IMG/VR virus record: IMGVR_UViG_3300009788_000317
Span: 1-22,424 of that record
DNA from: a virus
Reading direction: 5' to 3' (one strand)
Length of the DNA stretch: 22,424 nucleotides
Below are positions 5,591 through 21,214 of the stretch, in pieces. Position 1 is the stretch's first letter. Every line of letters begins with the position of its first letter. The translations under genes and the position numbers were made by a program. A model generated the notes under the pieces. It was not told where the DNA came from. It ran no database searches and saw nothing but the letters and a program-made list of their open reading frames with translations.

Positions 5591-5943
5591 TGCGACGAAG
5601 ACTTTCGCAGATCACTGCATTGTTGGTCCTCGTTGCCCTGGTTGGCTGTGGAGCAAGTCCAGCAAAGCAGTGGAAACAAGCTGCACTGGTCTTCCAGGGC
5701 ACTGAAAAAAGCTTGAACTTGGCTCATGATTCGGGTCTAGTTCAGGACGAAGATCTCGTGGCTCTCCAGCCTTATCTACAAATGGGCAAGGGAGCTCTTG
5801 ATGAAGCGTTCAATCAAATGGTTGCTGACCTCGCAGCAGGGACGACTCCCCAGGGAGGTGAAGTTTTTGAACGCTTTCTCGATGTTGTTGAAGAAGCCAT
5901 CGCTCGTGTGCTGCCGTACCTAATAACGCGAGGAGGTGAATAA
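5590..5943 (+). CDS. Phage-encoded lipoprotein
   Basis: A 117-residue protein with a textbook lipoprotein signal: a basic start MRRR, a hydrophobic core TALLVLVALVG, and a lipobox LVGC with the lipidated Cys at residue 20. The following residues are GAS, with no Asp at +2. By the E. coli rule this would favour the outer membrane. The mature part is helical and mildly acidic (FERFLDVVEEAIARVLPYL). It sits between the holin-like gene and other membrane genes, sharing overlapping stop/start bases on both sides. Possible roles are a lysis accessory or outer-membrane spanin, or superinfection exclusion. No family is recognised. Confidence 0.65.
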   Translation: MRRRLSQITALLVLVALVGCGASPAKQWKQAALVFQGTEKSLNLAHDSGLVQDEDLVALQPYLQMGKGALDEAFNQMVADLAAGTTPQGGEVFERFLDVVEEAIARVLPYLITRGGE

Positions 5944-6143
5944 TGCCCCCAGTAGAGATGATATCACTGATCCGACTCGCGATGATGGGTGCACGTGAAC
6001 TGCTTGGCGTTATCGACGTCAATAACGCTCAGGACATCACGATCGAGGATTTAAACAGCACCAAGGCAGAAGTTGATGCCACTCACGCCAGTCTCATGGC
6101 GAAGATCGACGCAATTAAGGAGGCACAGGGCGGCGGAGCGTGA
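5943..6143 (+). CDS. Small helical protein of unknown function
   Basis: A 66-residue product starting in TAATG with the lipoprotein gene; a GGAGG element lies about 7 nt upstream. The N-terminal third is an amphipathic or weakly hydrophobic helix (EMISLIRLAMMGARELLGVI). The rest is a polar helix (TKAEVDATHASLMAKIDAIKE) that could form a coiled coil, ending in QGGGA. Its stop overlaps the GTG start of the next gene. No family is recognised. Membrane association is possible. Confidence 0.5.
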   Translation: MPPVEMISLIRLAMMGARELLGVIDVNNAQDITIEDLNSTKAEVDATHASLMAKIDAIKEAQGGGA

Positions 6144-6331
6144 GTTTCATTCTGGATATAATTTCTAGTATTTTCAAGGCATTGTTTAGTGTCATCTGGG
6201 ATCGTCAATCATTACCCGACGAAGCAGAGCGTGCTAGTTCTGATTTTGGGGATGCTAGTGTCGATCACCTACGTGACAGCTTGTCGGGGTCCGGGTCCGA
6301 ACATAACGCTGATTCCGGCGATTCCGAATGA
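6140..6331 (+). CDS. Small protein with N-terminal hydrophobic helix; overlaps the spanin-like gene out of frame
   Basis: A 63-residue product with a GTG start overlapping the previous stop (GTGA), so translation is probably coupled. The first 20 residues, SFILDIISSIFKALFSVIW, form a hydrophobic helix that could insert in or lie on the membrane. The rest is acidic and Ser-rich (SLPDEAERAS, DHLRDSL). From base 6189 onward it shares DNA with the next gene in a different frame. This layout recalls the overlapping Rz/Rz1 lysis genes of other phages, but homology is not shown. Confidence 0.5.
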   Translation: MSFILDIISSIFKALFSVIWDRQSLPDEAERASSDFGDASVDHLRDSLSGSGSEHNADSGDSE

Positions 6332-6623
6332 AACTGAGCCAATGCTCACGGCAGAGCCGATCACAGCACGATTCCTGCTATGGAATAAGGACACCAAGAC
6401 CTTCGATATAAGCAAACGCACCACAATACCGGCAGGTATGACGGTGCATTTCGTTCCGATTGATGATATAATTGGGAGTCTTGAAAAATCACCAGAAAGG
6501 AGAATAGGAAAACAAGGTTCGAGCGATTTTGATAAACGGTACATATTCGTAGGAGCATTCATTGCAAGCTTGTTTGTCCTCTACCTTCTAGTCCGGGGGA
6601 TCAGGAAACGGAAAGGCTCATAG
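6189..6623 (+). CDS. Candidate unimolecular spanin (lipoprotein signal plus C-terminal membrane anchor)
   Basis: A 144-residue protein from a GTG start. The first 32 residues make a lipoprotein signal: a short n-region with one Lys, a hydrophobic core SVLVLILGMLVSITYV, and a lipobox VTAC with Cys 32. The middle (residues 33-115) is a predicted periplasmic segment containing a small beta region (ITARFLLWNKDT, then TTIPAGMTVHFVP). The end carries one transmembrane helix, YIFVGAFIASLFVLYLLV (118-135), followed by RGIRKRKGS, whose positive charge suits the cytoplasmic side. A protein lipidated at one end and anchored in the inner membrane at the other is the design of unimolecular spanins such as phage T1 gp11. 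These fuse inner and outer membranes at lysis. GTG 6231 is an alternative start but would leave no positively charged n-region. Confidence 0.55.
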   Translation: MSSGIVNHYPTKQSVLVLILGMLVSITYVTACRGPGPNITLIPAIPNETEPMLTAEPITARFLLWNKDTKTFDISKRTTIPAGMTVHFVPIDDIIGSLEKSPERRIGKQGSSDFDKRYIFVGAFIASLFVLYLLVRGIRKRKGS

Positions 6624-6926
6624 ATGGAAGTTCTGTTTCGGAATCTGTTAGAAAGAGTACCTGAGCTTGCAACAATGGTACTTATGGTATGGCTGTTTAT
6701 GAAGTACCTGTCAAAACGTGACGATCAGATCAAGGAAACACTGGAGAGACGAGACCAGATATTGAAGGAAATGGGTAATGAATCTAATCTGGCTCAACGA
6801 GACAGCCGAGAAGCCCTAGATAGAAATACGCATGTCCTTGGTAAAGTCCACGAGGCAATGCATAACAATAGTACTGCCCTAACAGAAGTCACAAAGGCAT
6901 TAGCACGTGTGAATGGAAGATCATGA
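6624..6926 (+). CDS. Single-pass membrane protein with long coiled coil
   Basis: A 100-residue product with ribosome binding site GAAAGG at 6611-6616. One hydrophobic helix is visible at residues ~12-30 (VPELATMVLMVWLFMKYLSK). The rest is a charged helix (RDDQIKETLERRDQILKE to TALTEVTKALARV) that looks like a coiled coil. The layout resembles inner-membrane spanin subunits or small holin-associated proteins such as XhlA-type products. Charges after the helix are mixed, so topology is unclear. It abuts the preceding stop, and its own stop overlaps the next short frame (ATGA). Confidence 0.5.
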   Translation: MEVLFRNLLERVPELATMVLMVWLFMKYLSKRDDQIKETLERRDQILKEMGNESNLAQRDSREALDRNTHVLGKVHEAMHNNSTALTEVTKALARVNGRS

Positions 6927-7141
6927 GCAAGAAAAAAGCTACCAGAAAGACCGTCCGTCGTACTGTAAAGAGGCCATCACGTAAAGTGATTGAACCAATC
7001 AGCATATTGCCGCTGAGAATGTGCTTGGCGTAAGATCCCGCTGCTCCTAAGAAGCCTAAGCCAGCACGTGGATTGACTCCTGTAGAGAAGGGGATGGCCG
7101 CAGCTGTCTATCACACCCACGCGCATTTATTCGGGATATAA
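6923..7141 (+). pseudogene. Short basic-protein frame interrupted by an in-frame TAA
   Basis: An ATG at 6923 overlaps the previous stop (ATGA) and opens a 72-codon frame that ends at TAA 7139-7141, just before the portal gene. The frame is split by TAA at 7031-7033. The first part (36 residues) is very basic (MSKKKATRKTVRRTVKRPSR). The part after the stop also looks protein-like (DPAAPKKPKPARG, then LTPVEKGMAAAVYHTHAHL). Together they resemble one small basic protein broken by a nonsense change. The alternatives are a real 36-residue protein plus leftover sequence, or an error in the sequence. The region 7034-7144 holds no other gene. No function is recognised; the Lys/Arg/Pro content would suit nucleic-acid binding. 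Confidence 0.4.
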
Positions 7142-7144
7142 GCT

Positions 7145-9589
7145 ATGCCGCAGGAAAAGCCCAAATACCTTCTAGGGCCACAAGGCCAAGAGCTAGTCCC
7201 TATCGGGGAAGTTTCTGATGGGCCTCTTAGCCTGAAGGAAGAGAAGACTTGGCAATCGATCCAGAAGAGTCAGCTATTTGAAATGGCTCTTAGGGATACT
7301 CGTAGTCCTGCTGCCTCACGTGCAAAGCAGCCGTATTGCAATCATGCGTGGGTTTTTGCATCTGCGGCCGCGAACGCAGATAATATTGCTCAGGTAGATT
7401 TCCTGATATGGGAGGAGACGGAAGCAGAACAGACTAGGCGTGCAAAGCAATCTCTACGACGCGGCCGAGTCAAACATACTTCCGCGTGGATTCCTAACAG
7501 GGGCAAGAACCGTAGTATACTCCAACGTCATACTCATACCAAACGGCGGTTTACTGGCAAACATATCAAGGCTCTAGAAGAAGATACAGATCATCCGCTT
7601 AGTAAGTTGTTCCGCAATCCTAATCCTCGTATGGCCGGAGTGACGTTGTGGAAAGCGACAGACGTATACTATCAGCTAGCAGGTAACTGTTATTGGTGGT
7701 TGGTGACAGAGAGCGGTGCGCCATGGTTTCCTGGGGATCGTATTGAACGGATCCTTGTACTTCATCCTGTGGACATGAAGCCATTAATTGATCAAGGTAC
7801 AGGCGTTCAAGTAGGATGGCAATTTGATGTCACGGGAAAATCTGAGGGTCTAGGCGTTGGAGCAAATGGTCAATCAATTAGACTGATGATGCAGGAAGTT
7901 GTTCATTTTCGCAACTTCAATATGGATCATGTGGTTGAAGGTCTCAGCCTTATCAATCCAGCAGCTGGAGCTATCATTCAAGATATAATGGCGCAACAGG
8001 TTAACACTGCTGTTCTTGAAAACGGAGCAGATCCTGGTGGTATTCTGACGAGTGCCGAGCCAATTGATCCCAGAGAGAAACGAAAGATCATCAAGAAGTG
8101 GAATGATCGTCATGGAGGTCCCCATTCTCGTCGAAAGATTGCGGTACTTGATGGGGATCTTAAATGGACGAAGACGGGAATGACTCCAGAGGAGATGCAG
8201 TTTTTCGATCTCCAGTCATTCAATCGGGAAACGGTTATGGCGGTTCTCCGGACGAACAAGTCAGTGCTTGGCTTGACGGAGGACATCAATCATGCCACGC
8301 ATCTTGCGCAGGATCGAGCCTTCTGGCAACGCTCGTTGCTGCCAAGAGTGCGATACTACGAGAGTGTGATTGATAAAACGATTATGGTTATTGAACCAGA
8401 TTCAACGGTTGCTGCGTTTAAGCTAGAGGATGTCGAAGCACTTCAAGAGGATATCACTTCGAAAGTAAAGACAGTCAAGGAGCTTACAGGCCAAGAGATC
8501 CATATGCCACCGGGCCAGGCTCTAGAGCTAGTGGGGATCGATGTAGCGGATTACGATGGTAGCGAAGAGGCTTTGGTCCCGCCGTTGCTGACAACGATTG
8601 ATCGTATCTTAGAAGATGCAGAAGATCCTCCGGAGGATACGGTTGTTGATCCGAATGCTCCGCCTCCAGATGAAGAGCCGGGAGATGAGGAGGATGAACA
8701 GGCTTTGCCTCGATTAAGATTTGAACGACCAGAGGGTTCTTCACTAGCTCATAAACGTGGTATGACGAGTAAGGTTTGGTTTGATCAGGTTACCAAGGAT
8801 ACCAATCGAATACGTGATGCGTTTGCGAAGCTTGTTGGGGCACATGAAAAGTTATTCCGCAAGCGTTTTCGTAATCATGTGTTCAATTTACGCAGAGAAA
8901 CACTCATCAACTTTGAACGAGTGTCTAGGGATAAGCTAGACCGAGTAGCATCTGGATCAAAGGTGAACAAGGATCTCTTTACTCCCGAGGAGATAGAGAC
9001 TATACTCTTCAATCTAGAGCGAGCAGGATTGGACATTACAGCACGTACCGCACCTCTGTACTCCAAGATGATTGAGGATATCACGGACTTTACGGAAAGT
9101 GAGTTAGGAAGGTTTTTCCAGTTTGACCCGACAGACATACAGGTAGAGACTTTTCTACGACGCAGGTCGGTAATGATTCGTAGTGTCAATGGTACAATCA
9201 GACGAGCTCTTCGTGCGGCCATCGCCACGGCTATAATTGAGGGAGCGGGATTCGATCAGCTTCAGAATAGTATTCGTCAGGTATTCAACCAACAGGTAAG
9301 TCCGTTCCGTGAGCTTCGTATTGCCCGAACAGAGACAGCACAAACTATGAGCGGAGTCCGTTCATTGATCTTTGCAGCAGAAGGTGTCAAACGAGTTGTC
9401 TGGGCAACTGCTGGCGACGAAAAGGTTCGTGAAGCCCATGTTATCTTGGGCAGTACAGGACCCCAGAATATCGGTCACAATTTCATGGAGGATCTCGGTG
9501 AACCGGGCACCCTCCTCTACCCGACGGATCCGGATGGTCCGCCGAGGCAAGTCATAAACTGCCGCTGTGTTCTTGTACCAGTAGGCTGA
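7145..9589 (+). CDS. Portal protein fused to a MuF-type head morphogenesis domain
   Basis: An 814-residue fusion. Residues ~50-480 match the HK97-type portal: an LFRNPNPRM segment, WKATDVYYQLAGNCYWWLV, ILVLHPVDM, EVVHFRNFN, a GLSLINPA stretch, NGADPGGIL, and the late NRETVMAVLRTNKSVLG and HLAQDRAFW segments. The portal forms the dodecameric ring through which DNA enters. An acidic Pro-rich linker (~500-535, including PPPDEEPGDEEDEQ) joins it to a C-terminal MuF region. Key MuF signs are RIARTETAQ near residue 725, a R-x-x-H motif (REAH) and the closing VINCRCV with C806 and C808. MuF proteins sit at the portal inside the head and are usually encoded separately next door; some phages fuse the two. 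The ATG at 7145 has only a weak ribosome binding site. The next gene is the prohead protease, as expected. Confidence 0.92.
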   Translation: MPQEKPKYLLGPQGQELVPIGEVSDGPLSLKEEKTWQSIQKSQLFEMALRDTRSPAASRAKQPYCNHAWVFASAAANADNIAQVDFLIWEETEAEQTRRAKQSLRRGRVKHTSAWIPNRGKNRSILQRHTHTKRRFTGKHIKALEEDTDHPLSKLFRNPNPRMAGVTLWKATDVYYQLAGNCYWWLVTESGAPWFPGDRIERILVLHPVDMKPLIDQGTGVQVGWQFDVTGKSEGLGVGANGQSIRLMMQEVVHFRNFNMDHVVEGLSLINPAAGAIIQDIMAQQVNTAVLENGADPGGILTSAEPIDPREKRKIIKKWNDRHGGPHSRRKIAVLDGDLKWTKTGMTPEEMQFFDLQSFNRETVMAVLRTNKSVLGLTEDINHATHLAQDRAFWQRSLLPRVRYYESVIDKTIMVIEPDSTVAAFKLEDVEALQEDITSKVKTVKELTGQEIHMPPGQALELVGIDVADYDGSEEALVPPLLTTIDRILEDAEDPPEDTVVDPNAPPPDEEPGDEEDEQALPRLRFERPEGSSLAHKRGMTSKVWFDQVTKDTNRIRDAFAKLVGAHEKLFRKRFRNHVFNLRRETLINFERVSRDKLDRVASGSKVNKDLFTPEEIETILFNLERAGLDITARTAPLYSKMIEDITDFTESELGRFFQFDPTDIQVETFLRRRSVMIRSVNGTIRRALRAAIATAIIEGAGFDQLQNSIRQVFNQQVSPFRELRIARTETAQTMSGVRSLIFAAEGVKRVVWATAGDEKVREAHVILGSTGPQNIGHNFMEDLGEPGTLLYPTDPDGPPRQVINCRCVLVPVG

Positions 9590-9603
9590 CAAGGAGAGCG
9601 TCC

Positions 9604-10860
9604 ATGCCCGAAGTAATCAAGAGTGCAAGAGTAATCGAAGATCCGGATGAGATCTACAAGTTCATAACGCAACGTGCACGTGAACATCCTTCTGGTCCCG
9701 CCATTCGCACGCATTCGGAGGAAGGCTATATCATTGAGCCTAGCTCTCCGACAGGGATCGTAGTAGACAAAGGTCGTCACAAACTTCCCTCAGCGGATGA
9801 ACTGAAGACTTTGGTCGAAGCTCGTGGTATGCCTTGGAGAGATGACTTTGTTGGTCGCTCTGAATTGTTCTGGACTAGTGATGAGCGAGTAGATGGCGAT
9901 GGAGATATCGTGCGTCAGAACTGGGACTTTTCTCGTTATGAAAAGCTCAGTCGAGTTCTCCACGCTCATAACTGGGCAGGACTGCCAATAGGTCGATCTG
10001 TCAGATGGGACATAGTCAAGCGTAACGAAGAGGACTTCAAGGGACCCGCTTTGTTACAGGTATTCTTGTTTGCACCGCAAGATGTTAATCCTATGGGTGA
10101 ATTGATCAGGAATATGGTCAAGGCACGCTTTCTCACAGAGACGAGTGTAGGATTCCTCCCGCTAAAGATCATCCATGTCGAGGATGAGGATGAACGGGCA
10201 AAGCTAGGTCTTGGTCGGTGGGGCTTGATCTTCGATAGGAGTAAGTTGATCGAGACTTCTACCTGTGCTGTTGCCTGTAACGAGGGAGCACATGTACTCA
10301 ATAGCCTCAAGGCATCAAGAGACTCGGGCTTCCTCAAGGCGGATCACCAAGATATGGTGCGATATCTTGTTGCTGCTCGTCACAAAGAAGATTTGTTGCA
10401 TGAAGAGTCTATCGGGATACTGACGAGTGGATTTGACAAGACCGTTTGTGATGTGTTCAAGGAGCTCTTCCCCGATGAAGTCAAGGAGCCAACGACAACG
10501 GTTGCTCTGGATGATTCTGTTTGCAACTATGTATCGATTGAAAGGCTCCAAAAACAGATCGACGAGATCAAAGAAGTTCAGGCCAAAGTGGCCGAGGAAC
10601 TTATCGGATGGTTCAAGAATCTTAAGGCTGGGTTGGTTGCTCTGTACCCAACGGACGGAACGATCCAAGACTCAGTACGAGGGAAACAAGATCCTGAAGA
10701 TAAGGATGATGACGACGACGACGAGGACGACGATGAATTGTTGGACGAACTCAATGATGACGACGAAGATGATGATGAATCTGTTGAGTCCGATCCTGAT
10801 GGTCGGTCACAGCCTGTGGGTTCCTCATATCTCGAAGAAATCTTTGGGGACAGTGACTAA
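9604..10860 (+). CDS. HK97-type prohead maturation protease with acidic C-terminal extension
   Basis: A 418-residue serine protease of the HK97 gp4 (U35) type. It cleaves the capsid protein's N-terminal region during head maturation. Ribosome binding site AAGGAG at 9591-9596. The core (residues ~85-235) has SDERVDGDGDIV, then VLHAHNWAGLPIG with candidate catalytic H122, then TETSVGF with candidate nucleophile S181, then LIETSTCAVACNEGAHVL with E217. The family is usually ~200 residues, and this one carries ~180 more. The extension has a coiled-coil segment (IERLQKQIDEIKEVQAKVAEE) and an almost pure Asp/Glu tract (~363-398) before a short end, YLEEIFGDSD. The extension may act as an internal scaffold; that is inference. 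The capsid gene follows after 26 nt. Confidence 0.9.
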   Translation: MPEVIKSARVIEDPDEIYKFITQRAREHPSGPAIRTHSEEGYIIEPSSPTGIVVDKGRHKLPSADELKTLVEARGMPWRDDFVGRSELFWTSDERVDGDGDIVRQNWDFSRYEKLSRVLHAHNWAGLPIGRSVRWDIVKRNEEDFKGPALLQVFLFAPQDVNPMGELIRNMVKARFLTETSVGFLPLKIIHVEDEDERAKLGLGRWGLIFDRSKLIETSTCAVACNEGAHVLNSLKASRDSGFLKADHQDMVRYLVAARHKEDLLHEESIGILTSGFDKTVCDVFKELFPDEVKEPTTTVALDDSVCNYVSIERLQKQIDEIKEVQAKVAEELIGWFKNLKAGLVALYPTDGTIQDSVRGKQDPEDKDDDDDDEDDDELLDELNDDDEDDDESVESDPDGRSQPVGSSYLEEIFGDSD

Positions 10861-10886
10861 TCACAACGAACACAGGAGGCATCATT

Positions 10887-12281
10887 ATGCCTTTGACTGA
10901 AGAGGAAAAAGCCGCAAGAGTCAAGAAGCGGCAGGAGGAGCGTGATAAGCTTCTCAGCCGCATCTCGAAGCTTGAGGTTACCGTCGAGGAACAGAAGAGG
11001 ATGATCGGGTCTTACAAGGCCGTCAGCGATGTGCTAGACGGCATAGATCTGAAGGACATCCTGAGCAGGATCGATGAGATCAAGTCTGGTCAGGAGACTC
11101 TCAAAGATCAGATCCGTAAGGACCGAGGTGGTCTGTACATCTCGGGTATTGAGGATGAAGGTCGTGACTTCAATCTCATCAAGGCTCTTGCCGGAGCAGC
11201 GACCAACTGGTCGATGTGGAAGGATACCAAAGAGCACGAGATCATGAAGCAGACTACCGACATTGCTAAGAATGTCGCAGGCATTGACTCGGAAGGTGGC
11301 TGGTTCGTGCCGGACCAGGTCATCGCTGATGTCATTGAGGCTCTGTACGAGGACAGTGTGTTCCTTGCCTTGGATGCAACGACGGGTCGTACTCGTGTGA
11401 GCTTGATCACCGGCTTGACTGGTGCGAAGGTTCGCATTCCGAAGTTCAACTCTGGTATGGTCGCGTTCTGGATTGGGGAAAAGGTGCCGTACACGGCATC
11501 AGAGCCCACCACCGCAGTCGTGACGTTAGACCCCAAGAAATTGGGACTCCTGACCACGCTTACGGATGAGATGGCCACCAGGGCAAGCTTCGGGTTCGAC
11601 AGCCTGCTGAGGAACGACATGCGTCGGGTTGCCGCTGCGGAGATTGATCGTGTTATCCCCTTCGGGTCAGGCACGAACTTTGAGCCGCGTGGTATCATCA
11701 ACGACCCCAACATCAGTCAGTTCTACTTCGAGAATGGAACCACAACTGCTCCTGGGGGAACTCCCATTGGTGGACGTGGTGACTGGTCGAAGATGAACTT
11801 GATGATGCTCCAGCTGGAGAATGCTAAGGTTACCATCAATAACACGGCTGCATGGATCAGTAGTCCGTCATTCTTCAGAGACCTCGCGAACCTTCGTGTT
11901 CTGAACTTCTCAAGTCAGGATGTTGAAGGCGTGGAGCCTGGACCGTATCTGGCGGGTCTGCCGCCACTGACGATGCGGGCCTTGGCGGATCTTCTGGGTG
12001 ACTTTGATAAGACCACCCAGATCGCTGCGAATAGAACGGTCTCCGCAACCACCCCAGGTAGTGCCACTACCTATACTGACCTATTCTTCGGCAACTGGTC
12101 CGAGTGCGTGGTCGGTAGATGGGGCGGGGTCGAGATCCTGAGTGACCAAGGGCTTGCTGGCCAGAACTGGTTTGCTGATCTGCGGTCCATCAAGATGCGG
12201 ATGTACATGGATATTGCTTTCCGGCACACTGAAGCTATCCTGTTCGCCCGTGATGTTCGAGTCTTCTCATATCCGGTGTAA
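10887..12281 (+). CDS. HK97-fold major capsid protein
   Basis: A 464-residue protein behind a strong ribosome binding site, AGGAGG (10874-10879). Residues 1-~105 are a charged coiled coil (EEEKAARVKKRQEERDKLL and on), the delta region. In HK97-like phages this serves as built-in scaffold and is removed by the prohead protease encoded just upstream. The capsid fold follows: DSEGGWFVPDQVIADVIE, ATTGRTRVS, VRIPKFNSG, the E-loop-like GEKVPYTASEPTTAVVTL, LTTLTDEMATRA, GSGTNFEPRGIIN, NTAAWISSPSFFRDL, and a late WGGVEILSD and MYMDIAFRH. Order portal, protease, capsid is the classic HK97 arrangement. A GC-rich hairpin follows 37 nt after the stop. Identification is firm; the cleavage point is not assigned. 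Confidence 0.93.
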   Translation: MPLTEEEKAARVKKRQEERDKLLSRISKLEVTVEEQKRMIGSYKAVSDVLDGIDLKDILSRIDEIKSGQETLKDQIRKDRGGLYISGIEDEGRDFNLIKALAGAATNWSMWKDTKEHEIMKQTTDIAKNVAGIDSEGGWFVPDQVIADVIEALYEDSVFLALDATTGRTRVSLITGLTGAKVRIPKFNSGMVAFWIGEKVPYTASEPTTAVVTLDPKKLGLLTTLTDEMATRASFGFDSLLRNDMRRVAAAEIDRVIPFGSGTNFEPRGIINDPNISQFYFENGTTTAPGGTPIGGRGDWSKMNLMMLQLENAKVTINNTAAWISSPSFFRDLANLRVLNFSSQDVEGVEPGPYLAGLPPLTMRALADLLGDFDKTTQIAANRTVSATTPGSATTYTDLFFGNWSECVVGRWGGVEILSDQGLAGQNWFADLRSIKMRMYMDIAFRHTEAILFARDVRVFSYPV

Positions 12282-12318
12282 ATGTGAGCACTGGATAGTC
12301 AAATCCCTCTGGGCGTTC

Positions 12319-12339
12319 CCCGGGAGTGATCCTCCCGGG
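12319..12339 (+). terminator. Perfect GC-rich hairpin downstream of the capsid gene
   Basis: CCCGGGAG (12319-12326) pairs perfectly with CTCCCGGG (12332-12339) around a 5-nt loop, 37 nt after the capsid stop and 26 nt before the next start. No T-tract follows, so it is not a classical intrinsic terminator. It may instead attenuate transcription or protect the 3' end of the capsid message. Confidence 0.5.
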
Positions 12340-12365
12340 AGCTCCCCTCAGGAAAGGAGGCAGCA

Positions 12366-12848
12366 ATGCCTGCCAATACACTCACGGAAAAGTCAAGTGT
12401 TGTGGCTTCACTTGACGCAGATGCGTACAGTACGGGCACAGTCAATGGTGCTGCGGTTGCAATCTCAAACTTCCGCAAGACGGAAGTGATTGCCAATTAC
12501 GGCACCTTGGGCAGTACCACAACCTGTATCGTCAAAATTCAGAGCTCAACGGACGGTACCACGTTCGCTGATCTTCTGGGTGATGATGGTGTAACGGTTG
12601 TGGCGTTCCCAGCGGTTGTGCCTGGTACTGATGATGATACCGTTTTTCGCGGTCTCATCTACAACGTCGAACTGCCACTCAATACATCCCACCTGCGGGC
12701 TGTAGCGACGATCGGTGTTCTGGCTATGGACTTGAGCGTACTAATGCGGCTGGGTGAGCCGTATGATGCTCCTGTAGTTGCGGATGCCGTTGCTGCCAAT
12801 CTTGGCGGCAACGCATTCTCTGCGATTCACGGCGTGGGTGCGCGATAG
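12366..12848 (+). CDS. Probable capsid decoration (cement) protein
   Basis: A 160-residue protein behind a very strong site, AAAGGAGG (12353-12360), suggesting high expression. It is beta-rich: DADAYSTGTVNGAAVAI, TTTCIVKIQSSTDGTTF, TVFRGLIYNVELPL, LRAVATIGVLAMDLSVLM. The 'DA.AYSTGTVNGAA...' start and the strand-rich middle with SSTDGTTF are typical of small phage head proteins encoded right after the capsid. Flanking hairpins on both sides make it a separately tuned, highly translated unit, as expected for a protein with hundreds of copies per virion. Decoration function is inferred from position, size and expression signals. Confidence 0.6.
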   Translation: MPANTLTEKSSVVASLDADAYSTGTVNGAAVAISNFRKTEVIANYGTLGSTTTCIVKIQSSTDGTTFADLLGDDGVTVVAFPAVVPGTDDDTVFRGLIYNVELPLNTSHLRAVATIGVLAMDLSVLMRLGEPYDAPVVADAVAANLGGNAFSAIHGVGAR

Positions 12849-12873
12849 CGTATCCTGCGGTGTGTTCATGCCG

Positions 12874-12906
12874 CCTTGGCGGGCTGACAAGGCTCGCCAG
12901 GGTTTT
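12874..12906 (+). terminator. Intrinsic terminator after the decoration gene
   Basis: CCTTGGCGGGC (12874-12884) pairs with GCTCGCCAGGG (12892-12902) over 11 positions, including two G-U pairs, around a 7-nt loop. TTTT follows directly (12903-12906). The hairpin starts 26 nt after the preceding stop. The T-run is short, so partial read-through to the downstream tail genes is likely and needed. Confidence 0.65.
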
Positions 12907-12917
12907 CGGAGTATGTA

Positions 12918-13088
12918 ATGACCGAACAAAATCCATGGGTCAGTCCTGATGTTGATAGGGACAGGGAAGCTGAGCTAGAGGATCTAGCAAATCCTGCTCC
13001 TGCTGGTAGTCCGTTCATACTCAGGGCACCAATAAAACGGTCAATTACGTTGCCAACGAGAATCTCGCATGGAACGGAGACACCGTAG
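12918..13088 (+). CDS. Tiny protein of unknown function
   Basis: A 56-residue frame that fills the gap between the terminator and the next gene. GGAG at 12908-12911 lies 6 nt before the ATG. The stop TAG directly abuts the next ATG. The N-terminal half is charged and acidic (DVDRDREAELEDLANP). The C-terminal half is basic and Pro/Ser/Thr-rich (FILRAPIKRSITLPTRI). This looks like a genuine small head-region gene, possibly a short linker or accessory peptide. No family is recognised. Confidence 0.55.
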   Translation: MTEQNPWVSPDVDRDREAELEDLANPAPAGSPFILRAPIKRSITLPTRISHGTETP

Positions 13089-13439
13089 ATGAGTACCCTC
13101 CGTGAATTTCGGTTCAAGCAAGGTTTTACAGGCACGATGCACTTCAAATTTATTGATGAAGATGAAGTGGTGGTGCCTCTGAGTGGTAGTGAAGAGGTAA
13201 ACTTTGGCATCAAGGTAGCAATGGTAGATTCAGTAATTCTTGTTTCGATAAGCGAAACGGATCCTGAACTGGTTGTAGATGGTCCGACAGATGAGGTGCG
13301 TATAACATTCAATTCTACTCATCTAGGAAATTTGGCTCCTGGTACTTATGTAGCAGATTTTTGGATAAAAACAAGTCCCATAATTGTATCTGACACTTTT
13401 ATATTCATCGTTGAGCCTATAGTCGCATTACCTGTGTGA
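13089..13439 (+). CDS. Small beta-sandwich-like structural protein
   Basis: A 116-residue protein starting directly after the previous TAG, made of regular beta strands: REFRFKQGFTGTMHFKFID, VNFGIKVAMVDSVILVSI, EVRITFNST, then APGTYVADFWIKT and DTFIFIVEPIVALP. The pattern (LAPGTY turn, then two strands ending in FxFxV) resembles Ig-like domains found in phage baseplate and virion accessory proteins. Position between the decoration gene and the head-tail connector suggests a virion component. The stop overlaps the next GTG start (GTGA). Confidence 0.55.
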   Translation: MSTLREFRFKQGFTGTMHFKFIDEDEVVVPLSGSEEVNFGIKVAMVDSVILVSISETDPELVVDGPTDEVRITFNSTHLGNLAPGTYVADFWIKTSPIIVSDTFIFIVEPIVALPV

Positions 13440-14071
13440 GTCAAGATATGTTAGTAAATACACAAGATGTACGAAATGCTCTGGGTTGGCCACCTACCAG
13501 AGACGTAGAAGCAGAACGTCTCGGTAAGATTGTAACCGCACAGTGGGAGGTTCAGACCAAACGACTATGGGACGCACGAATTGCTTATGCGTGGAGAACG
13601 GAACTCGATGAATTTGAGAAAGTAGTTATGCTTCCTCTGTATCCGCTCTCTGTAGCCCAGCTTGTTAGTTGGGCGGACGGAGAAACAGAGCCAGCAGATT
13701 TCACCGTTACGCTTACCAGGGATACTGATTATGTAATCGATATGGATACAGGTCAGGTGACTATACTCCAAACTGCGGGATCCAACTGGTTCTTTATCGA
13801 TTGGCGTCATCCCGACAACTGGCTAAAATTTGAGCTTACAGGAGGATACAATGCGAGTACGCTTATTACTGTTCATGATCAAGGGGAAGCTATTAAAGAA
13901 GCACTACTCGTCCAAGCAGTATATCAATATGAACGTAACAAGAGGGAAAATGTAATCGCAACTAGCGTAGCATTGGGCGGGCCAGAAAGTGGTGCCGTTG
14001 GGTTGCGCAACTCGAGTGTTCACCCCTTGTTCCGAGATCTTGCGAGAACATTCAGGCTCAATTCTCTATAA
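13436..14071 (+). CDS. Head-tail connector (gp6-like) protein
   Basis: A 211-residue protein from a GTG overlapping the previous stop (GTGA); an in-frame ATG at 13448 is an alternative start. It begins with a helical segment (VNTQDVRNALGWPPT, then AERLGKIVTAQWEVQTKRLW), then a beta insertion (FTVTLTRDTDYVIDMDTGQVTIL), and a closing helix (HDQGEAIKEALLVQAVYQYERNKR) with a short tail (FRDLARTF). This all-alpha bundle with a beta insertion is typical of HK97 gp6/SPP1 gp15-like adaptors that form a ring under the portal and complete the filled head. Synteny with the following gp10-like and terminator genes supports it. Confidence 0.75.
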   Translation: MSQDMLVNTQDVRNALGWPPTRDVEAERLGKIVTAQWEVQTKRLWDARIAYAWRTELDEFEKVVMLPLYPLSVAQLVSWADGETEPADFTVTLTRDTDYVIDMDTGQVTILQTAGSNWFFIDWRHPDNWLKFELTGGYNASTLITVHDQGEAIKEALLVQAVYQYERNKRENVIATSVALGGPESGAVGLRNSSVHPLFRDLARTFRLNSL

Positions 14072-14844
14072 TGGCCGCAATTGCTTTCAAAGTCATCACC
14101 AGGCCAAACCTGGATAAACTTGCACGTGAGATCAATGTGCGGGCTAAAAGGCTACGAGCAGATCTTACATTATTCTTCAAACAAGATCTTGGGCCAGAGG
14201 TTGCTGCGTTCGTACGCAAGACTATGGATTCTAGAGGCATACAGTCACGTACAGGACAGATCAAGAAGTCTATAGTTGGAGGTGGCACTGCAGGAAGAAG
14301 TCAAGCCGCACTGTTAACAGTTAGTATTATTGGCCCGTCAAAGGTAGAGCAAAGAGCCGTGGTACTTGAGGTGGGTACAAGGAGCGAAAATCCTAGGAGT
14401 GCTATTCCCGATATCACGCCTGTAAATGCAAGATTTCTGACGGTGCCTGCAAATGTTGGAGATGCGGCAAAGATGTCTGTTAGAGATCTGGGCGAGGATC
14501 TTCAAGCACTTATGTTTGGCAAATTAGGAGGAATGAACAACAATGTCGCAGGCAAGTTAGTTAGTGCAATAGCTTTTCAGGAAGAGCGTGAATCTGCAAT
14601 AGCAGAGGAACGAAAGCCAGACTTTAGTGGCCTCACTCCAATTTTCTTCCTGCTGACGTTTGTTAAAGTCAAGCCACGATTTTACGTACGCAGAGGAGTG
14701 GAGGAATACTTTCCCACGATCATGAAGAAGTTGCTAGAGAGAATTGAGAATCTTGATATCTTGAGACAGGGAGAAATGATTGAAGCCTCTGCAAGAAGAG
14801 CAGAAACACTCATATCAACACGTGATACGTTTCAGATTTTCTAA
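14071..14844 (+). CDS. HK97 gp10-like head-tail joining/minor tail protein
   Basis: A 257-residue protein starting in TAATG. Recognisable HK97 gp10-type features: helical FVRKTMDSRGIQSRTGQIKKSI, strand LLTVSIIGP, then VVLEVGTRSENPRS, the Pro-rich stretch and ARFLTVP, and late KPRFYVRRGVEEYFPTIMKKL. The family usually runs 110-150 residues. Here ~60 extra residues lie between the two halves (around GKLGGMNNNVAGKLVSAIAF). Family members join the tail to the head. The stop/start overlap with the next gene (TAATG) supports coupled expression. Confidence 0.75.
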   Translation: MAAIAFKVITRPNLDKLAREINVRAKRLRADLTLFFKQDLGPEVAAFVRKTMDSRGIQSRTGQIKKSIVGGGTAGRSQAALLTVSIIGPSKVEQRAVVLEVGTRSENPRSAIPDITPVNARFLTVPANVGDAAKMSVRDLGEDLQALMFGKLGGMNNNVAGKLVSAIAFQEERESAIAEERKPDFSGLTPIFFLLTFVKVKPRFYVRRGVEEYFPTIMKKLLERIENLDILRQGEMIEASARRAETLISTRDTFQIF

Positions 14845-15269
14845 TGGCATTTACTCCAAGACATCGTTGGCTCAAAGAACTACTTCGTATCCTGAGGGAT
14901 CTGGATAGCAATAAGTATTTTGTACGCAGAGGAGCAATTCTCTGGGATACATTTGCATGGCCTAAGTCATTTGCGGTTTCGGTACGTTGTCCTGAGAATT
15001 TTCCCGCGTCCAGTCAGAATCCTACGCAAACTACTCTGGTTCTCACGGTAGGGACTAGGATCCCTGGACCTGCTGCTAAGGAGGATATTGATGATGAAAC
15101 ATTAGATGTTCTGGAACAGGATATGGTCGATGCGTTAAGTGCTCTGAAAAGGTTTACAACAGAGAACGATAACGTCATCATCAACTCCGAATTGCAAGGT
15201 AGTGTCGAATGGCACAGTGCCGATTTTAATGTTCAAGGTTACGTTGTTACGTTCATGATTTCTTACTGA
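14844..15269 (+). CDS. Probable tail terminator (tail completion) protein
   Basis: A 141-residue alpha/beta protein, starting in TAATG. It has an N-terminal helix (HRWLKELLRILRDLD), a strand (FAVSVRCPENFP), a strand (TTLVLTVGTRIPG), an acidic helix (LDVLEQDMVDALSALKRF), and a final strand (NVQGYVVTFMIS). This order and the gene's place between the gp10-like and tail tube genes match lambda gpU/SPP1 gp17-type tail terminators, which cap the tube and bind the head connector. Confidence 0.68.
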   Translation: MAFTPRHRWLKELLRILRDLDSNKYFVRRGAILWDTFAWPKSFAVSVRCPENFPASSQNPTQTTLVLTVGTRIPGPAAKEDIDDETLDVLEQDMVDALSALKRFTTENDNVIINSELQGSVEWHSADFNVQGYVVTFMISY

Positions 15270-15280
15270 AAGGAACTCAA

Positions 15281-16093
15281 ATGGCCGTATCAGGGGCTCA
15301 AGAGTTTTGGGTCGCAGGTGCCCGAGTTTTCATCGTTCGCGATGCAATTGGTGGCGTGATTCAACCACTGTTAGACTTTGGCGTCATAACAGAGGTTGAG
15401 CCAGCCGTCGAGACCGAGCAGGCGACGCTGCGCGATCCCGATGGCGGTATTCTCAAGAAGGTTGATGAGGTCACGATCTCTTTTGAAGAGACGTACAACC
15501 TGACTGTAGCGAACTTCAGTCCGGATAACCTCAACATCCTTTTTGCGGGCGACGGGGTTCAGTCTTTCTCACAGGTAGCAACACCACTCACAAGTGTTGT
15601 TCATGCCAACCAGACACCAGGCAAACTAGTGAAGCTAGTTAATGCTGCTGGTACCTGGATGTACGGCATCACTTCAGTTGAAGCGGTCAAGGGACCATCA
15701 GGTACTCCGGTGTATGTGGAAGACACCGACTGGGAAATTGTTGACCTCGAGCGTGGTGTCATTCGCATGATTGATGGCGGTGCGTTTGCCGCTCAAGCCA
15801 ATCTGGAGATTGACTTTACGCCACGTGCCATTAGTGGCAACCGACTTGTAAGGCCGCAGGCCGGAGCCGCTAGTTTCAATGGTCGTGTTGCTCTGTTTAT
15901 CGGTCGAGCCGAGAAAGCAGAACAGCATGTCAGAGAGATGCGTTGTTCTATCACGACGGAAAGCTTCGCTGTTCCGGCGGAGGAACACTCCAGTTGGGTC
16001 GCCAGATTCTCGGTTGTTGAAGACGCTACATCTGTTGCTGAGCCGTTCGGCAGGATGTTGCACTTTGTGGGTAGCGTTCCGGCGACGTCGTAA
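15281..16093 (+). CDS. Major tail tube protein
   Basis: A 270-residue protein with ribosome binding site AAAGGA (15269-15274). It begins VSGAQEFWVAGARVFI, followed by strand-rich sequence (LLDFGVITEVEPAVETEQ, DPDGGILKKVDEVTISFEE, WEIVDLERGVIRMIDGG, LEIDFTPRAISG, AALFIGRA-like VALFIGRAEKAEQ, and a final SSWVARFSVVED). The acidic N-terminal strands and the late beta-sandwich pattern fit phage tube proteins that stack as hexameric rings. Position directly before the chaperone pair and tape measure is diagnostic. It is followed by an intrinsic-terminator-like hairpin. Confidence 0.85.
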   Translation: MAVSGAQEFWVAGARVFIVRDAIGGVIQPLLDFGVITEVEPAVETEQATLRDPDGGILKKVDEVTISFEETYNLTVANFSPDNLNILFAGDGVQSFSQVATPLTSVVHANQTPGKLVKLVNAAGTWMYGITSVEAVKGPSGTPVYVEDTDWEIVDLERGVIRMIDGGAFAAQANLEIDFTPRAISGNRLVRPQAGAASFNGRVALFIGRAEKAEQHVREMRCSITTESFAVPAEEHSSWVARFSVVEDATSVAEPFGRMLHFVGSVPATS

Positions 16094-16123
16094 ACCACGC
16101 TGCCCCACGACCCCAACCCCTGG

Positions 16124-16159
16124 TCCTGGCTCCCCGCCGGGGCCAGGATTTTGGTCTTT
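16124..16159 (+). terminator. Intrinsic terminator after the tail tube gene
   Basis: TCCTGGC (16124-16130) pairs with GCCAGGA (16142-16148). An inner CCC/GGG stem and a short GCC loop extend it with one bulged base. TTTTGGTCTTT follows at 16149-16159. It lies 30 nt after the tube stop and just before the chaperone's ribosome binding site, so it probably lowers expression of the chaperone and tape measure relative to the tube. Confidence 0.7.
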
Positions 16160-16180
16160 CAGGCATAAGGAGAACACACC

Positions 16181-16717
16181 GTGGCCAAACAAGAAAAGAC
16201 CGCAGCTGATATTCTCAAAGTCGTCGATGCGCTCAGACCAGGCGTTCTCGTTACGCTTGGCGAAGATGAGGGCAAACCTCTTCAAGTCCGTGTTCGAGAT
16301 GTTGCTCTCGAAGATATTGAAGAGTTCGCAGCGGTGATTGGATCAACCATTCCGCAAATAATCACTGCAATTTCTGGTTTTATTCGAGATGAAATTGCAA
16401 CAGGAGGAAAATTCACATGGGGTGATCTACAGGACCATCCTGAATTTCTTACTGAAGCACTTGCCAAACCCGCATTGATTGGTAGACTTGTTCCTCTGGC
16501 GATACAAAGTCTTTCTGATATGATTGATAAATGCGTGGAGCCAAATGGTGTGTTCAAGAAGTTGCCACACGATATGGCTGCACCAGTTATCCGTCAGTGG
16601 ATAGAATTGAATCTTCTTGACTCGGGAAAATTAAAGGGCTGGGGGACGGCGTTCAGCGGGTTGACGAAAAAGCTGCAGGAAGTGCTCCCAGCTTCGGAGT
16701 TGTCTGCTGTCACTTGA
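16181..16717 (+). CDS. Tail assembly chaperone, unshifted product (gpG-type)
   Basis: A 178-residue protein from a GTG start with AAGGAG (16167-16172) 8 nt upstream. It is helical and lies between the tail tube and tape measure genes, the position of lambda G. Visible segments: DILKVVDALRPGVLVTL, VRDVALEDIEEFAAVIG, PQIITAISGFIRDEIA, LAKPALIGRLVPLAIQSL, PVIRQWIELNLLDSG. In siphophages the short product is made in excess over its frameshifted form, and both coat the tape measure during tail assembly. The slippery site lies 29 codons before the stop. Confidence 0.8.
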   Translation: MAKQEKTAADILKVVDALRPGVLVTLGEDEGKPLQVRVRDVALEDIEEFAAVIGSTIPQIITAISGFIRDEIATGGKFTWGDLQDHPEFLTEALAKPALIGRLVPLAIQSLSDMIDKCVEPNGVFKKLPHDMAAPVIRQWIELNLLDSGKLKGWGTAFSGLTKKLQEVLPASELSAVT

Positions 16718-16944
16718 TTGGTTCGGGCTTTCAGCCGGACTTCTTGCTGTCCCTCGGCCTAAAACAAATCTACTTCTGGTATGATCAACTGCTTCGTTAC
16801 AAAGAACTGGAGTCACATCTTGAAGGACAACAGGCTACACTTTCAATTGCGGTTGCTTTAGGTGACAAGAAAGCCAGAAGCATCAAGAAAAAGCTAATGA
16901 AAGAAGCACTCGCCAAGGTGACTGATGCCGACAGCAAAAAGTAA
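16181..16944 (+). CDS. Frameshifted tail assembly chaperone (gpGT-type), -1 shift at 16624-16630
   Basis: Predicted -1 frameshift product of about 254 residues: 150 from the zero frame, then 104 encoded from 16630 in the -1 frame to the stop at 16942-16944. The -1 frame opens right after a TGA at 16618-16620, so the shift must occur after that point. The second part begins IKGLGDGVQRVDEKAAG and continues into LSLGLKQIYFWYDQLLRY and a Lys-rich helix (KKARSIKKKLMKEALAKV). In the family, the T domain recruits tube subunits to the tape measure. The -1 frame has only a TTG (16714, overlapping the stop) for independent start, without a good ribosome binding site. Confidence 0.75.
16624..16692 (+). 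promoter_or_regulatory. Programmed -1 ribosomal frameshift signal
   Basis: GGGAAAA at 16624-16630 is in the correct phase (G GGA AAA) to be an X-XXY-YYZ slippery heptamer, close to lambda's GGGAAAG. After a 7-nt spacer, GCTGGGGG (16638-16645) can pair with CTCCCAGC (16685-16692) over 8 bp (one G-U), enclosing a 39-nt loop. The spacer length suits a stimulatory stem. Pairing was done by eye; no folding program was used. Confidence 0.8.
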
Positions 16945-19900
16945 AATCCAAATTGAAATTCAAGCTCTGACCGCTGCGGCCAAGAAGAATATCACTACAT
17001 TTGCAAATTCTTTTAAGGGTTTGCGTACACAGATTCTTTCTACGGAAAAGGGCATCGCTCCATTAACTCGTCAGGTAGCAGGCCTAGCAGCAAGTTTTGC
17101 TAGTGTGGCAGCTGTTGGCAAAGCAATCAAACTGGCCAGATTCCAGATTGAACAGCAGGTCAAGCTACAGGTTGCTCTCGGAGAGAACATTCATCTCTTC
17201 GATGAAATGTTGGAGTCAGCGGCAAGGTTCCAAAGAGCTACTCTCTTTACTGACGAAGTCACGTTAAGCGTTACTGCCTTAGCATTAAGTTTTGGCGTTG
17301 CAGTTGATGAAATTGATGATTTTATTGCTGCCGCTGCCGCAGTAGCTACAATTGGTATTGTACCTAGTTTTGAAGCAGCAGCAAGACAGCTGTTGTTCTT
17401 CAGGAGTGGCCGTGGACAACCACTCAGCGCATTAGCTCGTTTGCCACTAGCTAAGAATTTGACTGAGGCAGAGCGAGCAGCAGGTGGAGTTGAGAAAGCT
17501 ATCAATAGGCTACTTGGGGATGTGGCTCGTGAAGTAGCCAAGACGCCGTTCGGCGTTCTACAGCAGGACATCAACCTGATTGCTGATGAATTTGAGCGAT
17601 TGGGTCGTGTGCTGATCCTGATTGTCGGTCCAGCAATCAATCAAGCCAAATTAGCGTTTAGTGGTTTTGTTGATAGTGTTGATAGAGCTATCAGCCCAGC
17701 GGTTCCTTTGATCAATGCTGCTATCCAACCAATAGCAGGTATTCTGCGTGAGTTGATTAAACTTACAGCTGTTATTGCTCTGTTTAAGATTCTCGCTAAA
17801 ACTTTTAAGCTTGTAGGTCTTCAAGGTTTTCTCGGGAAGCTCATAAAAATTATTCGTATTCTTGCTAACCCATTCGGCCTAGTTCTTGGGTTTGTTATTG
17901 CTATTGTTGTAGGACTTGGTGTACTTGCCGCTAAAGTAAAACCTATACGAGAAGCATTCGGTGGTTTGTTTGTGTTGGTCGCAGCAGTTTTCTCTGCTCT
18001 TAAGCAATTGCTTGTAGAAGCTGCGGAGCCATTTGCTGCACTCGTTGAACAAATTGTTCTCAGTGTAACAAATTGGGTTGATAAGCAAATCGAAGCAGGC
18101 ACTGCCCTTGGTAAGTTCCTAAAGCGATTGATTGAGATCAATGATGGAATTAAAGACGGGTCAATTACTTTTGAAGAAGTTGTACAAGATGCTCGTCTAG
18201 CTCTTGTACGTGCGTTTGTGTTTATCAAGAGCAAAGTTATTAATCCTTTCTCCTTTGGTCTTCGGGGCGTTATAAATGCCTTCAAGAATGGTTTCCTAGT
18301 TGCTTGGAAGGCAATAAGGGTTGCAGGAACTGCTGTTCTTATTGCACTTGCTGTAGTATTTGAAAGAATTATTACGGGCGTCACTATTGCTATTGATGGA
18401 GTAACAAAAGGAATTGGGAAGGCCATAAGTCTCTTCGACGAAGAAGCAGGGAAGAAATTTGGCACAGGGTTAGCAAAAAGTGAATTTGTACTACTTATAC
18501 AAGAATTACCCAATGCTCTCGCGGATCAGCTTCGGGAGCAAGTTGATGAACTTGGTGCTTCTATTGACCAGGGTGCAGCGGAGCAAGAAAAACTCAATAG
18601 GGAATTCGAGGAAAGCCAAGGAAGACTACAGGATATTCTTGATAAAGAGTTACAACGCGATGCAATTGCACGAAAACGCTTTGCACGTGAACGTTCATTC
18701 AGGGAATCTCCAGAGGGTATTACGGCAGAGAGCAAGCGGATCCAATTATTGCGGGAGGCTCGAATTGATGCAGAGCGACTGGGTAATGCTCAGATCCTAG
18801 CCGCAACGGAAGGTAGGGTCCGGGAAGAATTTAATATTGAGAACATCAAGAACAAACGTCTTCTTGCTATAGCGAAACGACTCGGTATTGATAAGCTCGA
18901 GCTCAGTGAAGACGAAGCTCTTGCAATTCGCAAGAAGCAAATCAATATCACCAAGGCTCTTGGCAAAGCAGAGCTAACAGAGCTTCAGACTTCACTCAAG
19001 AAACGAGAAATTAACTTTGAGCAATTTGCTAGGAGACGCAAACAGCTTGCGGTTGAAACTATTGATTTTGAGCTACGACTACTCGAGCAAGAACAAGAAG
19101 GTCGGATAGTTGCAATTGAGGCGGAAGAGAAAAAGCGTATTGAATTCGCAGCACGACAAATAGTACGTGCTCAGAAAGAACAAGCGGCTCTTGATGCTGC
19201 ATTCAAGAAGCAAAAAAAGCTTTTAGATGATATTGAAAATAAGAGAGCAAATATCTCGGAGGAAGCTGCAGAGTCACAAAAACAGCTCGTTGCCCGAGAA
19301 CTAGAGGAGCGATTGGCTGCTCTTGGTAAGATAAGGATAGAAACTGCGAAGCAAGCAGAAGAAGAGCTCATTACTATTAACAGCATTGCACGCTTCCAGG
19401 AAGAAGCTGCTAAATTAGCAGGCGAAATCACTCTCAAACTATTAGAAAGACGTACCTCCTTAGCTCAGGCTCTTAAGCAAATTGAGCAGAAGAGGCTAGA
19501 AGCTTTACGTGAAGAAGTCAAGGTGACGCGGTTCCTTAATGAGCTCAGGGAACGAGGTCTTATATCTGCAAGAAAAGACTTCGAGGCAAGTTTGCTTCAG
19601 GCAAATCAAAGTATCATAGAATCTATCAACCAAGTTCGGGAAACTCTTAAACGATTCCCGACCGAACTTGAGATAAAGATATTCATCGCAGAGTCAGATC
19701 TTGCTCGTGAGGCAGCAGTCACCGATGAGCTCGCTCGTATCACAGAGAAGCTTACAGAGAAGACAGAGGAATATAATGCCTCTATAGCTCGACGCAACAG
19801 ACAAGTTCTATTGGGTACTTTGCAAAGTCAGAGTGCTATTGACCTTAACGAAAGAGATCTAAAGGTCATCATCAGACAGACCAAGGCTACTATTGATCAA

Positions 19901-21214
19901 GTAGCTGCATTAGCTCTGCAGGTCATAACTAGTGAAGAGTTCGCGGGCAAGCAGAGACTACTGAAAGAAGTCACTCAAGAACTTACTACCGTTCAAGAGA
20001 CACTTAATGCACAGTTGGCCGAGCAACAACTGTTGCTATTGGAACTCACTGGTACCTTTGACCAAGGTCTGGTGTCTGGTCTAAGAAACTTTATCACACA
20101 ACAAGAGAATGCGTTCGCTAAAGGCATAGAGCTTGCTCAGGCTCTTACCGAGGAGATCAGTACGAATCTCACCGATGCATTCGTTGACATAATAAAAGGA
20201 ACCAAGACTGCCAAAGAAGCATTCCTTGATTTTGCTAGGGACACGGTGGAGGCTATACTCAGGGTCATTATCCAAATGATTATCCTGAAGGCATTGTCTT
20301 TGGCTCTCGGTGGTGTCTTACCCGGAGGAGCAATTCCGGGAGGCAATAAAGGCGGACTCATCGAAAGATCAAAGGGAGGACCGATACCAAAACGTAATGA
20401 GGGTGGGTTTGTTGGCAGGAAAGTATCAATATCAGGATACAGCAAAGGTGGATCTGTTGATGACACAACGATAAAGCCAAAGCGTAAAAAGGATAAGTTT
20501 GCCGACAAGGCAATAGAAGTATCAATATCAGGACGTAATGAAGGTGGATCTGTTGATGACACGACAATAAAGCGAAGACGCAAAAAGGATAAGTCTGCTG
20601 ACAAGGCAATAGAAGTATCAATATTAGGACGTAATGAAGGCGGATCTGTTGATGATACAGTAATAACACGAAGACGCAAAAAGGATAAGTTTGCTGACAA
20701 GGCAATAGAAGTATCAATATCAGGACGTAATGAAGGTGGATCTGTTAGTGAAAGGGATAGGGATGGCAAGGTAACAGGAACACCGATACGAATACGTGAC
20801 AAGCATAAACTTATCGGCAGATCAGCGGGAGGACCAATACCAGGTAGAGGTCCGGACCGAGATACTGTTATTATCGGGGCTACACCTGGTGAGTTTGTGC
20901 TACGTCGTGCTTCATCAGACTATTATGGCCGGGCTATTCTCAATGCTCTGAATTCAAGATCCATTCCTAGAAATATATTGACTTCGTTCGGTAAAGAAGG
21001 CGGAAGAGAGATCAATGACACAGGAGGCTTCCAGAGAGGCGGAGAAGTCACGCCCGAAAGACCACGTCAAGCCGGTACGAGCGTATTGCCTGTATTGGTA
21101 GCGGACAGTGAAGCAATGGACAATCTACTCAAGGGCGGGAAGAATGAGTTGCTTGACTTCCTGCGTGAGAATAGAGATCAATTCCTGGGTGAGGATATTG
21201 CAAGAACGTCATGA
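16925..21214 (+). CDS. Tail tape measure protein
   Basis: A 1429-residue protein that sets tail length and is carried inside the tube. It starts inside the end of the chaperone frame (20-nt overlap). Order of regions: N-terminal helical, Ala-rich domain; hydrophobic segments at about residues 312-337 (FGLVLGFVIAIVVGLGVLAA), 346-360 and 470-489; a long charged coiled coil (~540-1055); a conserved-looking late helix (TAKEAFLDFARDTVEAIL and on, ~1085-1130). A Gly-rich C-terminus follows, with repeated GG motifs, three 32-residue tandem repeats, and a typical ending, DTVIIGATPGEFVLRRASSDYYGRAI in two adjacent pieces. Using the rule of about 0.15 nm per residue, the tail would be roughly 210 nm long. 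The hydrophobic segments may insert into the membrane at DNA delivery. Confidence 0.92.
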   Translation: MPTAKSKIQIEIQALTAAAKKNITTFANSFKGLRTQILSTEKGIAPLTRQVAGLAASFASVAAVGKAIKLARFQIEQQVKLQVALGENIHLFDEMLESAARFQRATLFTDEVTLSVTALALSFGVAVDEIDDFIAAAAAVATIGIVPSFEAAARQLLFFRSGRGQPLSALARLPLAKNLTEAERAAGGVEKAINRLLGDVAREVAKTPFGVLQQDINLIADEFERLGRVLILIVGPAINQAKLAFSGFVDSVDRAISPAVPLINAAIQPIAGILRELIKLTAVIALFKILAKTFKLVGLQGFLGKLIKIIRILANPFGLVLGFVIAIVVGLGVLAAKVKPIREAFGGLFVLVAAVFSALKQLLVEAAEPFAALVEQIVLSVTNWVDKQIEAGTALGKFLKRLIEINDGIKDGSITFEEVVQDARLALVRAFVFIKSKVINPFSFGLRGVINAFKNGFLVAWKAIRVAGTAVLIALAVVFERIITGVTIAIDGVTKGIGKAISLFDEEAGKKFGTGLAKSEFVLLIQELPNALADQLREQVDELGASIDQGAAEQEKLNREFEESQGRLQDILDKELQRDAIARKRFARERSFRESPEGITAESKRIQLLREARIDAERLGNAQILAATEGRVREEFNIENIKNKRLLAIAKRLGIDKLELSEDEALAIRKKQINITKALGKAELTELQTSLKKREINFEQFARRRKQLAVETIDFELRLLEQEQEGRIVAIEAEEKKRIEFAARQIVRAQKEQAALDAAFKKQKKLLDDIENKRANISEEAAESQKQLVARELEERLAALGKIRIETAKQAEEELITINSIARFQEEAAKLAGEITLKLLERRTSLAQALKQIEQKRLEALREEVKVTRFLNELRERGLISARKDFEASLLQANQSIIESINQVRETLKRFPTELEIKIFIAESDLAREAAVTDELARITEKLTEKTEEYNASIARRNRQVLLGTLQSQSAIDLNERDLKVIIRQTKATIDQVAALALQVITSEEFAGKQRLLKEVTQELTTVQETLNAQLAEQQLLLLELTGTFDQGLVSGLRNFITQQENAFAKGIELAQALTEEISTNLTDAFVDIIKGTKTAKEAFLDFARDTVEAILRVIIQMIILKALSLALGGVLPGGAIPGGNKGGLIERSKGGPIPKRNEGGFVGRKVSISGYSKGGSVDDTTIKPKRKKDKFADKAIEVSISGRNEGGSVDDTTIKRRRKKDKSADKAIEVSILGRNEGGSVDDTVITRRRKKDKFADKAIEVSISGRNEGGSVSERDRDGKVTGTPIRIRDKHKLIGRSAGGPIPGRGPDRDTVIIGATPGEFVLRRASSDYYGRAILNALNSRSIPRNILTSFGKEGGREINDTGGFQRGGEVTPERPRQAGTSVLPVLVADSEAMDNLLKGGKNELLDFLRENRDQFLGEDIARTS
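20421..20745 (+). repeat. Three 96-bp tandem repeats plus a partial fourth in the tape measure gene
   Basis: Units begin with AAGTATCAATAT at 20421, 20517, 20613 and 20709, an exact 96-bp period. The fourth is truncated near 20745. Each unit encodes 32 residues, including VSISG, RNEGGSVDD, and a basic block such as KRRRKKDKSADKAIE. The period is a multiple of three, so copy-number change keeps the frame. Copies differ at scattered positions, so they are not brand-new. Confidence 0.9.

Follow-up and report, generated by a model that had tools for sequence, protein, structure and literature searches.

Closest described systems

The closest described counterparts of the locus analysed here are found in phage lambda and in the Casjensviridae. 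In lambda, the gene before the tape measure gene encodes gpG and, through a −1 shift near its end at the heptamer GGGAAAG, the longer gpGT with a C-terminal T extension. The binding partner of gpG is the tape measure protein, that of the T part of gpGT the major tail protein (PMC5009743). In four phages with a Casjensviridae-type major tail protein, the gene for this protein is followed by a G-like gene, then by T in the −1 frame and the tape measure gene. The heptamer is GGGAAAG in Achromobacter phage AchV4 and AAAAAAG in Burkholderia phage AH2, where it was predicted (PMC3483164); the AH2 record is among those matched in this analysis. Annotation of these genes is uneven: across five Casjensviridae records the T part is called ‘tail length tape measure protein’ in three and ‘hypothetical protein’ in one, and it is omitted in Rhizobium phage RHph_X2_30. 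The T frame of this last phage (L004, 3714–4402) is open and carries the heptamer AAAAAAC, yet it is unannotated.

Organization of the tail module

The window, that is, the whole stretch of DNA analysed, is a virus record of 22,424 bases from an uncultivated tailed phage. It encodes a terminase, a portal/Mu F-like fusion, a protease, a capsid protein, head-tail genes, a major tail protein, G and a tape measure protein. The tail-module features discussed below lie on the plus strand. The major tail (tube) protein (15281–16093) is of the Casjensviridae type and has an Ig-like domain (phrog_807, E 2.2e-19). It scores 67.6 bits against the NCBIfam tail tube model NF052337 (cut-off 60) and matches its Casjensviridae counterparts at ∼27% (tblastn). 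Next comes G (16181–16717), a putative tail assembly chaperone of 178 aa in the 0 frame, so named because it precedes the tape measure gene and weakly resembles Casjensviridae G. It begins with GTG at 16181, has a Shine-Dalgarno-like AAGGAG at 16167–16172, and stops at TGA (16715–16717). The tape measure protein (16925–21214, 1429 residues) matches Pfam Tape_meas_lam_C (E 1.6e-4) with 22.1 bits, slightly below the curated cut-off of 23.

Between the major tail protein and the tape measure protein there are thus two overlapping ORFs with the second in −1, which is the lambda G/GT-type layout. The second frame, T (16630–16944), would supply a 104 aa extension of a GT fusion, and the tape measure ATG (16925) falls within its 3′ end, an overlap also seen in relatives L003 and L005. 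The order of a major tail protein typical of chi-like phages (Casjensviridae), G, T in −1 and tape measure, together with the size of T and its overlap with the tape measure gene, matches Casjensviridae G/GT and supports the original prediction of a frameshift in a tail chaperone gene. With AchV4 and AH2 the window shares the major tail protein family, the gene order, the −1 frame and a similar T length. It differs from them in that G is just 15–19% identical and T has no detectable similarity.

Several other features of this phage were recorded. The portal protein (7145–9589, 814 residues) has a C-terminus that matches the Mu F head-morphogenesis domain, making it a portal-MuF fusion. Between terminase and portal (5318–6926) lie four small genes whose products resemble membrane proteins or lipoproteins, one of them having a lipobox-like start; they are possibly lysis genes. 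Three of the four were scanned against Pfam, with nothing above cut-off. Scans of the window for tRNAs and Rfam families came back empty. Two other IMG/VR contigs with different sample numbers (L008, 38,775 bases; L009, 5,837 bases) match the window at 99.9% identity over 1–15938 and 5802–11615, and we regard them as the same virus. They were the only contigs returned by searches with the portal, capsid and major tail proteins, and neither reaches G: the frameshift site lies beyond both, the longer one stopping at window position 15938.

Overlapping frames and the GGGAAAA heptamer

The heptamer GGGAAAA (G GGA AAA, 16624–16630) lies in phase, with the 0-frame codons GGA at 16625 and AAA at 16628. 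A TGA (16618–16620) closes the −1 frame upstream; the heptamer starts three bases later, and from there the −1 frame is open to 16944, extending 227 nt past the G stop. Recomputation of the predicted fusion gave the same 254 residues as the original prediction, with a predicted mass of ∼27.7 kDa for GT and 19.2 kDa for G. As in lambda, G precedes the tape measure gene, the −1 shift would occur close to its 3′ end, the X_XXY_YYZ heptamer is of the GGGAAA type and T would form a C-terminal extension; unlike in lambda, the last base of the heptamer is A rather than G, and a further heptamer starts nine bases later. No Shine-Dalgarno-like element is visible within 20 nt before the slip site, whereas a GAGG-like element precedes the site in several relatives.

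The 20 window genes examined (6657 codons) contain 14 XXXYYYZ heptamers in phase, of which two fall in the G overlap, and G is the sole gene with one in a −1 overlap at its 3′ end, even though 17 of the 20 have such an overlap. When codons 16619–16714 were recoded synonymously, a GGGAAA- or AAAAAA-type heptamer arose somewhere in the overlap in 13% of recodings, but its combination with a −1 frame open throughout arose in just 1.7%. At least two heptamers, whatever their type, appeared in 2.2%.

PMC4066793 cites earlier work in which G_GG.A_AA.A was inefficient in E. coli, while its own results place V_VV.A_AA.R, GGGAAAA included, among the efficient motifs.

Conservation of the site among Casjensviridae relatives

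Scanning with the G proteins of the four phages above yielded 28 viral loci. To these we added L003, L004, L005 and L007 and removed identical G proteins (L021, L030, L005 and L007), leaving 28 distinct relatives, which are not all independent because several form near-identical pairs (e.g., L014/L015 and L035/L037). Cylindrospermopsis phage Cr-LKS3 (L006) was not counted: its major tail protein is similar, but the gene that follows lacks a −1 overlap of this kind.

Some heptamer occurs within the overlap in 23 of the 28 relatives, and many use GGGAAAN. Its position is fixed: 20 of the 26 relatives with an LP anchor carry a slippery heptamer at codons 25–26 after that anchor, against 1.7 expected under synonymous recoding, and the maximum reached in 200,000 simulations was 10. 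The unanchored L027 and L038 have GGGAAAC and GGGAAAG in a matching GG-L context, bringing the total to 22 of 28. In L003 the heptamer is TTTTTTG, two codons after the family column. The five relatives without a strict heptamer (L012, L013, L016, L019 and L024) keep A_AAG at that column, as G_GAA_AAG in four and A_CGA_AAG in one. No start codon lies between the site and the T core in 17 of 25 scorable relatives; one is present in eight, and three could not be scored. The T extension beyond the G stop is 146–272 nt in the 28 relatives and 221–272 nt in 27 of them. The fixed heptamer, together with the lack of a T start in most relatives, indicates that T is normally reached by frameshifting in these phages, and it strengthens the case for the same event in the window.

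Homology of G and T

G is the top-scoring of 239 window segments against a Casjensviridae G profile (hmmsearch E 0.032), with 15 of 200 shuffles scoring as well; hhalign returns a P of 3.6e-4 and a probability of 16 only. We consider homology of G to Casjensviridae G marginal on these profile scores. For T, neither hmmsearch nor hhalign found anything among Casjensviridae T proteins, and the profile alignment is weak (13 of 300 shuffles as good); homology of T is not significant. Neither protein has a usable match in PHROGs, Pfam or NCBIfam. Searches for close relatives were likewise empty for G in viral contigs, genome contigs, phages and plasmids; for T in viral contigs and phages; for the tape measure protein in viral contigs, and for the DNA of its start in phages; and for the capsid protein in genome contigs. 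The quality of single-sequence structure models (mean pLDDT 44 for G and 63 for T) was too low for them to be used in fold searching.

The downstream stem

Downstream stimulatory structures are common at −1 sites of this kind, although they are not universal. The original prediction drew an 8 bp stem, 16638–16645 with 16685–16692, after a 7 nt spacer. This stem exists, with one G-U pair among its eight, and folding lengthens it to 16636–16645 (5′ arm) and 16685–16694 (3′ arm); the spacer is accordingly 7 nt to the stem as first drawn and 5 nt to the stem as folded. Folding of 16620–16700 recovers it, with five of 200 shuffles as good. Over 70 nt the fold reaches −25.7 kcal/mol, equalled by seven of 200 dinucleotide shuffles (z −1.9) and by 1.4% of 1000 codon permutations; of 2000 stretches of 70 nt taken from 7145–21214, ∼4% fold equally well. 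Over 90 nt the fold does not stand out from shuffles, 83 of 200 being as good (z −0.07). The stem is therefore modestly better than chance, suggestive of a stimulator but not strong. Nor is it common to the relatives, in which the mean downstream-stem z is −0.87 over 22 sites, with few strong structures. These 22 sites come from the 23 heptamer-bearing relatives after dropping L037, whose downstream stretch is identical to that of L035; the additional heptamers CCCGGGC (L023) and GGGGGGC (L029) were not included.

A second heptamer and the choice of slip site

The original prediction overlooked another heptamer in phase with G, AAAGGGC (A AAG GGC, 16633–16639), which starts nine bases after the start of GGGAAAA. 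In both the window and AchV4/AH2 the slippery site falls in the stretch after an LP...L[TN] motif; for the window to be covered, the anchor was relaxed to L[TN], which also accepts LN. Counted from this anchor, AAAGGGC occupies codons 25–26, the family column, whereas GGGAAAA occupies codons 22–23, three codons upstream of the column used by AchV4 and AH2. Three of four alignments or anchorings place AAAGGGC at the conserved column: hhalign and alignment A3 give this register without the widened anchor, and alignment A1 is one codon off.

The exact slip site is uncertain because of this second heptamer. Ribosomes might shift mainly or jointly on AAAGGGC, with GGGAAAA auxiliary or incidental and Leu rather than Ile at residue 151. 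We consider this rather unlikely, yet AAAGGGC coincides exactly with the heptamer position of 20 of the 26 anchored relatives, and the rarity of two or more heptamers among recodings also speaks in its favour. Against it, the predicted stem overlaps AAAGGGC, the RNA 3′ of this heptamer folds no better than shuffles (z 0.2), and the A-site codon of the relatives at that column is AAN, not GGC. Moreover, by general pairing rules, the tRNA for GGC is expected to re-pair poorly with GGG. Even so, A_AA.G_GG.C is listed in PMC4066793 among the motifs that exceed 0.10% in E. coli without stimulators. Position thus favours AAAGGGC and the stem favours GGGAAAA. We favour GGGAAAA as the slip site, with AAAGGGC as a serious rival or partner.

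A double site is also conceivable, in which both heptamers feed the −1 frame and this lineage has moved, or is moving, its slip site upstream from an ancestral column; we put this forward tentatively. A literature search for tandem or second slippery sites returned no paper on phage tails, judged by titles and the starts of abstracts.

The two sites would yield fusions of equal length whose sole difference is Ile or Leu at residue 151. Consequently, the junction peptide originally proposed for mass spectrometry (DSGK followed by IKGLGDG) is a poor check: trypsin would cut it to ...DSGK, IK and GLGDGVQR, the last of which would reveal −1 frame reading but not the site, and the Ile/Leu difference would hide which site had slipped.

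Probable programmed frameshifting and its alternatives

This phage probably makes a longer GT version of its putative tail assembly chaperone G by programmed −1 ribosomal frameshifting. From the observed phase, overlapping frames, gene order and conserved site in relatives, we infer the following course, including the slip itself, its rate, its site and the function of its product. The majority of ribosomes would translate G through to its stop at 16715–16717. A minority would shift into the −1 frame, with GGGAAAA as the likeliest place, where the tRNAs on GGA and AAA could re-pair with GGG and AAA, accompanied by pausing at the stem that starts 5–7 nt downstream. The slipped ribosomes would then read the −1 frame to 16944, giving the 254-residue GT. 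By analogy with lambda, many copies of G and a few of GT may coat the tape measure protein, with T recruiting the tube protein; the same chaperone role is suggested here by gene position.

T could instead be made as a separate protein, by ribosomes that end at the TGA (16715) and reinitiate on the TTG that overlaps it (TTGA, 16714). An ORF of 76 aa with this start (16714–16944) is present in the ORF list and is, as anticipated, what a gene caller might report in place of the fusion. A GGAG lies ∼14 nt upstream of the TTG. As a Shine-Dalgarno element, however, it is weak and distant, the start codon is rare, and a low-confidence model (mean pLDDT 63) puts the TTG within a helix whose start lies further upstream in the −1 frame. 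The relatives also argue against reinitiation, in that the 17 described above lack any start before the T core, though eight have one. Reinitiation therefore seems improbable.

It is more improbable still that nothing is programmed, and that an assembly indel error or gene decay created the two frames with a heptamer by chance. The site is known from a single copy, covered by no second contig, and a GGGAAA- or AAAAAA-type heptamer alone is no great rarity among recodings; the relatives, however, share the two-frame layout with its −1 offset. Transcriptional rather than ribosomal slippage is extremely improbable, for although the A and G runs look slippery, no run in the overlap exceeds five bases, which is short for polymerase slippage, and the GGGAAAN of many relatives contains no long run.

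Programmed frameshifting as the preferred reading is a well-supported prediction and makes this chaperone gene an ordinary example of a mechanism used by lambda and many other phages, with the unusual tandem of heptamers as its one notable detail. It would round off the tail module of this uncultivated phage, which is otherwise unplaced, and set right a gene that automated annotation divides or overlooks. Having two heptamers in tandem, the locus is a modest case in which the evolutionary movement of a programmed slip site could be tested: if the double site is real, a new heptamer with its own stem would have been added while the old one still works.
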